From the NCBI GenBank assembly GCA_016873395.1, contig VGXG01000009.1, positions 1-61,499 on the forward strand: DNA of 61,499 bases. The letters are read 5' to 3'. The position numbers and the translations under genes are program-made. This DNA is from Nitrospira sp. GTDB taxonomy: Bacteria > Nitrospirota > Nitrospiria > Nitrospirales > Nitrospiraceae. The notes below the pieces were generated by a model that worked only from the letters and a program-made list of their open reading frames with translations, did no database searches and was not told the origin of the DNA. Below are positions 5,455-6,545 of the stretch, piece after piece (the stretch's first letter is position 1; each line of letters starts with the position of its first letter).

Positions 5455-5770
5455 TTAGCTCGTTGATCGGCAATGGCGATCGTTCCACCGACGCTCGCTA
5501 ACCCATCGTACATGTCTATATGATTCCAAACCGGACAGGGTTGAAGCCCATTGATCCGACTTTTTAGCTCGTTGATCGGCAATGGCGATCGTTCCACCGA
5601 CGCTCGCTAACCCATCGTACATGTCTATATGATTCCAAACCGGACAGGGTTGAAGCCCATTGATCCGACTTTTTAGCTCGTTGATCGGCAATGGCGATCG
5701 TTCCACCGACGCTCGCTACCCCTTACTCGCAGGGCTCATATAAACTAACACCGTTAAAGGTTGAAGCCCG
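5455..5770 (-). repeat. Structured 109-nt repeat array, units 1-3
   Basis: Units begin (plus strand) at 5455, 5564 and 5673 with TTAGCTCGTTGATCGG. Units 1 and 2 are identical over 109 bp; unit 3 matches for its first ~47 bp then diverges but keeps GGTTGAAGCCC. On the minus strand, the direction of the flanking tRNA genes, each unit contains a stem closed by TTAGC/GCTAA with an inner GUCG-GUGG / CCAU-CGAU helix. No protein in this stretch is convincing. Confidence 0.75.
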
Positions 5771-5992
5771 TCTTCATCATAATAGATGAAGGTCGCGTAG
5801 CGACACCTTGCCCAGTGATCAAACGCCATGCCCCGCCGGTACTGCTGGCGCGACACTGCCTGATTAACAGCCGTCGGTGAGCACCTGTCGCGCCAAACGA
5901 CGAGCAAGCGAGACGCGCAATCGCTTAAGATATTCGGCGGCGGCGCCTATCGGAGGGTGCGCCACCTCAATAGCCACGAGCGAAGCGAGGAG
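5771..5992 (-). other. Spacer between the two tRNA genes
   Basis: Holds a perfect hairpin CTTCATC-ATAATA-GATGAAG (5772-5791) followed at once by GTCGC-GTA-GCGAC (5792-5804), and otherwise sequence I cannot assign. A 63-codon minus-strand frame runs through it but its end is translated repeat, so I do not call it a gene. Confidence 0.4.
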
Positions 5993-6011
5993 TGGTCGGG
6001 GCGAGAGGATT
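5993..6011 (-). pseudogene. 19-bp duplicate of the tRNA-Pro 3' end
   Basis: TGGTCGGGGCGAGAGGATT is an exact copy of 6149-6167, the CCA end, acceptor strand and part of the T-arm of tRNA-Pro. The copy is in the same orientation, 156 bp away, without the rest of a tRNA. Such duplicates arise as attachment sites of integrating elements or as debris of tRNA duplication. Confidence 0.6.
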
Positions 6012-6148
6012 AGGTCTCCGGCGCCAGGCTCCGCCTGCGCCTCCGACCGGCCGGCTCGCTGCCGGGTATCAATGGCCTCTTCCTCCCTATTCGGTCGGCG
6101 CTCGTCGGCTTCAAATCCTCCCGACGGTCAACCGGATTATTTACACTT

Positions 6149-6225
6149 TGGTCGGGGCGAGAGGATTTGAACCTCCGACATCCTGCTCCCAAAGCAGGTG
6201 CGCTACCAGGCTGCGCTACGCCCCG
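6149..6225 (-). tRNA. tRNA-Pro(TGG), CCA encoded
   Basis: Minus-strand cloverleaf: acceptor CGGGGCG/CGCCCCG, D-arm GCGCAGCCTGGTAGCGC, anticodon loop TTTGGGA (anticodon TGG) on stem CTGCT/AGCAG, T-arm GGAGGTTCAAATCCTCT, discriminator A, encoded CCA (6151-6149). Repeat unit 4 ends just upstream in the direction of transcription. Confidence 0.97.
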
Positions 6226-6231
6226 ACGTAC

Positions 6232-6545
6232 TTAGCTCGTCCACAGGCAGTGATGTTCCACGACAGACGCTCGCTAACCCTTAGTTCGGGTCTCCGTGGC
6301 TCCACGCCGGAAAAGGTCGAAGCCCATTTATTCTTAGCTCGTTCATGGACAATGGCGATCGTTCAACCGACGCTCGCTAACCCATCCTGCAGGTCTATAT
6401 GATTCAAGGCCGGACAAGGTTGAAGCCCATTTATCTGACTTGTTCTTAGCTCGTTGAGCGGCAGTGGTGATTTCACCACCGACGCTCGCTAACCCATCGT
6501 ACAGGCCGACGTAGTTCCAGGCCGTTAAAGGTTGAAGCCATCGAT
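6232..6545 (-). repeat. Structured repeat array, units 4-6
   Basis: Units start (plus strand) at 6232, 6334 and 6446, about 100-112 nt apart, between rdgB and tRNA-Pro. They are more divergent than units 1-3 but keep the blocks TTAGCTCGT, GACGCTCGCTAACCC and GGT(T/C)GAAGCC. The inner stem changes while pairing is kept: unit 6 has a perfect GTGGTGA/TCACCAC stem and unit 4 has GTG/CAC. This suggests selection on RNA structure. Confidence 0.75.

Follow-up and report, generated by a model that had tools for sequence, protein, structure and literature searches.

E1, a structured intergenic repeat family of Nitrospiraceae with a covarying stem and a strand-fixed link to tRNA genes

Structured intergenic repeats are common. 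In E. coli, the tyrT operon, a tRNA operon, contains the rtT RNA repeats, tandem units of ~100-180 nt that lie after the tRNA and take in its 3' end, and the attC sites of integrons are imperfect palindromes, found in tandem arrays, with RYYYAAC...GTTRRRY ends. REP and REPIN elements are palindromes of 20-40 bp with an unpaired GTAG or CGTC tag at one end (PMC3733652). Repeats of the ERIC, bcr1 and NEMIS/Correia type are intergenic, measure ~100-150 nt, share a secondary structure and are thought to affect the stability or processing of RNA (PMC2267715); RNase III can bind or cleave those of the Correia type (PMC2649163).

Here we describe E1, a family of repeats found in a Nitrospira sp. contig; "the window" denotes the whole stretch of DNA analysed, 61,499 nucleotides. 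Like REP, BIME and REPIN elements, E1 is intergenic, often lies downstream of genes, is structured, occurs as single units and as inverted pairs, and has no gene of its own; the E1 pairs of one relative (G031) resemble REP dimers. However, none of the features by which REP and REPIN are recognized (a tagged palindrome of 20-40 bp, a Y1 (RAYT) transposase and high copy number) was found: E1 units measure ~100 nt rather than 20-40, most genomes hold 1-9 copies, no Y1 transposase is linked to them, and there is no terminal GTAG/CGTC tag, an internal CGTC occurring in one branch only. E1 is also passed down locus by locus and keeps to the strand of the tRNA. The repeated intergenic position and shared secondary structure of E1 place it, as a kind, with structured intergenic repeats of the ERIC/bcr1 type. 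It matches ERIC, bcr1 and Correia elements in size, but its sequence is unrelated, its single units have no visible terminal inverted repeats, and, unlike those repeats, it sits mainly 5' of promoterless tRNAs. E1 and rtT are both tandem within a tRNA operon, but E1 lies before the tRNA and is free of tRNA sequence, and the Rfam rtT model had no match in the full scan. With attC, E1 shares tandem arrays and TTAGC/GCTAA-like ends, but the end motifs stand in the reverse order, and an attC site was rejected on that ground. When all 4227 Rfam families were searched against the window, only tRNA reached its gathering threshold and, at E values up to 5, nothing credible fell on the units, so that an earlier note on this DNA was right to assign them to no named RNA family. 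A search of a limited literature collection found no relevant report of tRNA-linked repeats or structured RNAs in Nitrospira. E1 is a real and previously unnamed family, restricted to one lineage, whose stem covaries and whose link to tRNAs that lack promoters is strong and fixed in strand.

Two arrays at the rdgB locus

The earlier note had described six structured repeats around two tRNA genes, and this arrangement was confirmed (Table 1). On the minus strand the order is the rph-like ORF, rdgB, three E1 units, tRNA-Pro(TGG), a spacer of ~380 nt with other repeats, three further E1 units and tRNA-Arg(TCT). Because both tRNAs lie on the minus strand, E1 is read in the transcribed direction from GGGCTTCAACC to GAGCTAA; each unit spans ~100 nt and ends a few nucleotides before a tRNA or the next unit. 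The units of the earlier note are these elements as they appear on the plus strand.

Table 1. Features of the E1 arrays and their surroundings in the window
Feature	Position	Strand	Basis
E1 unit 1 (last copy before tRNA-Arg)	5454..5551	-	R2 95.8 bits, E 4e-20; 109-nt repeat
E1 unit 2 (identical to unit 1)	5563..5660	-	R2 95.8 bits; 109 nt identical
E1 unit 3 (stem domain almost the same as in units 1-2; 5' domain divergent)	5672..5771	-	R2 74.0 bits
E1 unit 4 (last copy before tRNA-Pro)	6231..6327	-	R2 89.5 bits
E1 unit 5	6333..6430	-	R2 98.2 bits
E1 unit 6 (starts ~13 nt past the rdgB stop codon)	6445..6542	-	R2 91.0 bits; groups with the rdgB-proximal units of G004 and G023
tRNA-Arg (TCT)	5373..5449	-	ARAGORN; Rfam RF00005 74.8 bits
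tRNA-Pro (TGG)	6149..6225	-	ARAGORN; Rfam RF00005 67.7 bits
rdgB (Ham1/ITPase family), upstream co-directional gene	6554..7135	-	Pfam PF01725, 4.7e-61
rph-like ORF (putative; named by reading the sequence), upstream of rdgB	7298..8041	-	ORF list
E2, second repeat family, 3' of tRNA-Pro, TGGCGCGACA..TGTCGCGCCA stem	5770..5915	-	lies 3' of same-strand tRNAs at five other places

Within-genome BLAST gave E values of 1e-51 to 1e-7 for the E1 repeats, and their repetition is therefore not due to chance. The stretches at 5455-5563 and 5564-5672 match at all 109 nt. Compared with this pair, identity is 88% for 6334-6441, 79% for 6446-6539 and 72% for 6232-6331, while 5673-5722 shows 98% over the first 50 nt and diverges after that. 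The suggestion that the array is still expanding or being homogenized applies to one half of it: only the Arg array, with two identical units and half of a third, looks recently homogenized. The Pro array is old, since its three units share only 73-75% identity with one another and the rdgB-proximal one clusters with the unit at the corresponding position in a different genus (support 0.955).

Several other repeats and tRNA oddities were seen. An exact 19-bp duplication of the tRNA-Pro 3' end (5993-6011 and 6149-6167) surrounds an islet of ~140 bp and looks like an attachment-site duplication; the islet is also found in G017, G019 and G030, and is absent from G004, G006 and G015. At five places away from the locus, E2 lies ~39-88 nt 3' of a same-strand tRNA (Leu-GAG, Cys, Ala-GGC, Ser-GGA or Ser-TGA), a placement that is the mirror image of that of E1, and some E2 variants start with the same GGGCTTCAACCTTTTCCGG 5' part as E1. 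At least 11 tRNAs of this genome (e.g., L144, L146 and L163) have a further repeat, TACCAAGCTTGCTTGAACCGCCGGCT..ATTATCG, directly after their CCA end. In five relatives (L021 in G023, L098 in G025, L110 in G010, L111 in G169 and L121 in G183), the tRNA-Pro(TGG) after rdgB is broken at or just past the anticodon and gives way to unrelated sequence, which in several cases has a GGGGATTGCT..CTTGATAGGAG..GGCAATCCCC hairpin; the pattern suggests an insert within the anticodon loop, and a search of four of these loci against Rfam matched no family and recognized no known intron class.

Covariation in the outer stem

The 5' part of E1 is conserved in sequence (GGGCYNCAACCTTTTCCGG...), and its 3' part is a stem-loop closed by an 8-step helix with tandem G.A; a unit covers ~98 model positions, and its conserved ends are GGGCYNCAACC and GCTAA. 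The outer stem has the form NNNGC-GA-G / C-GA-GCNNN, with two invariant G.A steps between the outer five pairs and one further covarying pair (G-C in 56 copies, A-U in 7). The G.A region places CGAG opposite CGAG, which in RNA duplexes forms a stable tandem sheared G.A motif. In alignment A3, 94% of cells in the six Watson-Crick steps were paired, compared with at most 39% in slid controls, and 26 double-sided changes were counted against 5.1 +- 1.9 after shuffling (0/500). When all column pairs of 76 aligned copies were ranked by corrected mutual information, the outer stem's central pair came first, and two more stem pairs came third and fifth. Variants of the stem include TTAGC/GCTAA, TCTGC/GCAGA, TTCGC/GCGAA and TGGC/GCCA, among others.

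This covariation upholds the proposal of a selected RNA structure, although two of the details first put forward hold only in part. The TTAGC/GCTAA closing stem that had been ascribed to every unit is present in five, whereas unit 3 has GTAGC. An inner stem preserved by paired changes, as claimed for units 4 and 6, is borne out for unit 6 alone, which folds better than shuffled sequence (z -3.0) whereas unit 4 does not (z +0.71); no inner helix is common to the family, and the loop is variable. Units 1, 3 and 5 likewise folded no better than shuffled sequence (z +0.35, -0.10 and +1.31, respectively). Unusual thermodynamic stability was accordingly rejected, and the case for structure depends on covariation; because most units show no advantage when folded singly, E1 is more than a plain strong hairpin. 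RNAalifold returned no structure from the first alignment, of 18 sequences, because the loop is too variable, and the stem therefore had to be named and counted.

Other candidate features were considered. Just outside the stem, a candidate pseudoknot, GGG:GCC(C), shows 8 double changes but only 80% pairing, and it comes in part from three related sequences. A conserved small ORF (ATGGGCTTC...) was rejected, as its start codon is not conserved and indels break the frame.

Distribution and genomic position

Searches used two models: R1, built on sequence alone with 18 units, and R2, which includes structure and was built with 63. E1 was found in 16 (R1) and 18 (R2) of 175 genomes of the same family, Nitrospiraceae, representing 10-11 of 22 genera, and a sample of 296 genomes from the phylum gave a single weak match outside that family. 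Matches of an exact 19-mer to named records show two of the carriers to be Nitrospiraceae/Nitrospirae MAGs. Genomes carry 1-9 copies each, except G031, with 31. The genome described here (2.34 Mb, 97 contigs, 39 tRNA genes) has nine copies at five loci, and all nine are linked to tRNA genes; at the loci outside the window, E1 ends 4-9 nt 5' of tRNA-Leu(TAA), tRNA-Ala(CGC) or tRNA-Gly(CCC), on the same strand; at the Ala locus the contig stops within E1. Altogether, 19 loci in 11 genomes have an E1 that ends 2-9 nt short of the 5' end of a tRNA (Pro, Arg, Leu, Ala, Gln, Met or Gly) on its own strand; one copy among them, in G119, is not independent, and the count is 18 without it. That copy is discounted because it shares exactly 127 nt with a copy in the present genome and both contigs start at the same base. 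The two MAGs (L065 and L033) belong to different genera, the shared 127 nt comprise E1 and the leader and first 27 nt of tRNA-Ala at the contig ends, and nothing comparable lies beyond; this is probably a k-mer overlap from one assembly graph. Beyond the 19 loci, E1 lies before a tRNA-Pro that is cut short in G023, and one copy faces the 3' end of an opposite-strand tRNA.

The link to tRNA genes that the earlier note had drawn is therefore real, with every copy that abuts a tRNA at these loci on the tRNA strand, but it is not exclusive. In relatives, E1 can also stop 1-30 nt short of the start of a dnaX, gltD-like, recA, hsp20, lptF/G-like or response-regulator gene, and some copies end a few nucleotides from the stop of a convergent gene; these contexts are approximate, because the genes there are simple ORF calls. 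The 5' end of E1 often lies 0-80 nt past the stop of a co-directional gene. Given these positions, E1 seems to occupy transcribed junctions rather than promoters. The checks that the earlier note had proposed, a model search of the genome and phylum and a survey of the neighbors of other tRNA genes, turned up covariation and a tRNA link rather than stems without covariation or copies scattered at random.

For 37 tRNAs of this genome, sufficient upstream sequence was available; roughly half of them show a recognizable sigma-70 promoter, and the five that follow E1 are all among the 17 with the weakest matches (p about 0.014, by our own count). At seven others with weak or borderline promoters, strong, unrelated hairpins or inverted repeats take the position of E1 (z -2.6 to -4.2). 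The spacers before the promoterless tRNA-Met, Lys, Thr-GGT, Pro-GGG and Trp are filled with long inverted repeats composed of short words such as GTGAGGCGTGAA, and similar words flank the E1 pairs of G031.

The occupant of three orthologous junctions changes between species. Between rpoD and tRNA-Met, G004 and G006 have E1 and the present genome has a perfect inverted repeat; between rdgB and tRNA-Pro there are one, two or three E1 units, other sequence or almost nothing; and between trpD and trpC (genes named from ORFs) there is an E1 pair, two unrelated hairpins or nothing. These exchanges suggest that a structured spacer as such may be kept, rather than one given sequence. They are also what repeated insertion into tolerant spacers would produce.

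Inheritance, amplification and possible function

The orientation and position of E1 are compatible with an element that is transcribed and acts on neighboring RNA. We tentatively favor, at somewhat less than even confidence, the reading that E1 is a structured element transcribed between cistrons, most likely as a processing or insulating spacer that separates a tRNA from the message upstream of it. The covarying outer stem, the position before tRNAs with weak promoter matches, the background-level sigma-70 score inside E1, the exchangeable occupants of orthologous junctions and the conservation across genera speak for it. E1 would be carried in the transcript between two genes of one operon, ending a few nucleotides before the next gene; before promoterless tRNAs it would prevent the upstream message from pairing with the tRNA, offer a site to an endonuclease, or both, and RNase P would then trim the leftover leader. 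That E1 is transcribed within the operon, that it is cut or protects, and by which agent, we infer. The copies before protein genes or between convergent genes require this spacer model to stretch to general intercistronic use, and since G029, G082 and G005 have no spacer between rdgB and tRNA-Pro, E1 is dispensable there.

The main rival, which we consider only a little less likely, is that E1 is a non-autonomous repeat of the REP, ERIC or MITE kind, a DNA hairpin that spreads through the gaps between genes, which tolerate it; its closeness to tRNAs would then reflect spacers that tolerate inserts, and the stem would be kept for a mobilizing enzyme. Variable presence at orthologous places, tandem and identical copies, and copies between convergent genes would all fit such an element, as would the amplification in G031. 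There (L077-L090), the 31 matches form mostly about eleven head-to-head pairs of ~190 bp, each centered on a short GCGCGAAGCGCGC-type palindrome inside inverted-repeat arms, much as REP dimers lie in palindromes (PMC3733652); the pairs occupy convergent or co-directional gaps, one of them between trpD and trpC. However, copies tend to group by place and not by genome: the rdgB-proximal units of three species in two genera cluster together (0.955), as do the copies at gltD (0.956), at dnaX (0.845) and at the Gly and PBP loci. Between genera, the E1 at gltD is 85% identical, the preceding 60 nt 46% and the flanking DNA 79-80% (79% for the downstream gene); at dnaX the values are 85% for E1, 61% for the adjoining 60 nt and 74% for the downstream gene. 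Conservation above the adjoining spacer argues for constraint. The tRNA linkage of all nine copies in the present genome, with fixed orientation, the low copy number outside G031 and the missing GTAG/CGTC terminal tag also speak against a mobile repeat. No Y1 transposase (PF01797) was found in the copy-rich G031, in G004, G019, G198 or G020, or in other E1 carriers, and association with a RAYT transposase was rejected, there being none where E1 copies are most numerous. In G011 (L060, G011:C6:8840-9419), an IS200-like Y1 transposase gene starts ~120 nt from an opposite-strand E1 copy, the only such neighbor seen. We take E1 to be an old, mostly vertically inherited element that was amplified in one lineage.

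It is considerably less probable that E1 is a promoter, or an antitermination or attenuation leader, that drives or passes transcription into the tRNA, with tandem copies raising the dose. The tRNAs that follow E1 have no other promoter, E1 lies nearly always on their strand, and some units have a TATAGA box 17-18 nt after TTCAAC/CTGCAA; but this box is not conserved, the mean best sigma-70 score of 63 copies (6.70) equals the shuffled background (6.73), and a number of copies are directed at the 3' end of a convergent gene. The switch helix that a leader might use, AACC:GGTT, was rejected, with 0 double changes and no covariation. Least probable of all is a protein-binding regulatory RNA, or a small RNA released by RNase P, whose stem folding would control translation at dnaX, gltD and lptF/G, because the 3' strand of E1 overlaps the ribosome-binding region there, and which would be a by-product or sponge before tRNAs: start codons 1-7 nt past the stem, as in GAGCAGAGGATG and GAGCTAAGACATG, would suit it, the invariant tandem G.A and conserved 5' part suggest recognition, and tandem copies are multiple, but the genes after E1 (RecA, DnaX, GltD-like, Hsp20 and LptF/G) have no common function and many copies precede non-coding tRNAs.

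A bolder form of the spacer reading, which we regard as improbable though slightly less so than the promoter or leader, would make E1 a dedicated RNA module for maturing tRNAs from mixed mRNA-tRNA transcripts in Nitrospiraceae; its tandem-G.A stem would be recognized by a processing factor and be replaceable by unrelated hairpins, and together with E2 on the 3' side it would constitute a lineage-specific system of processing elements flanking tRNAs. If the spacer reading is true, a family that is inherited by position across genera and that, in this genome, lies wholly before promoterless tRNAs would link structured repeats to a definite step, in which tRNAs are freed from mixed operons. Within one lineage, several structured elements with no relation to each other occupy the same gene junctions, and swapping them offers a way to test their function.
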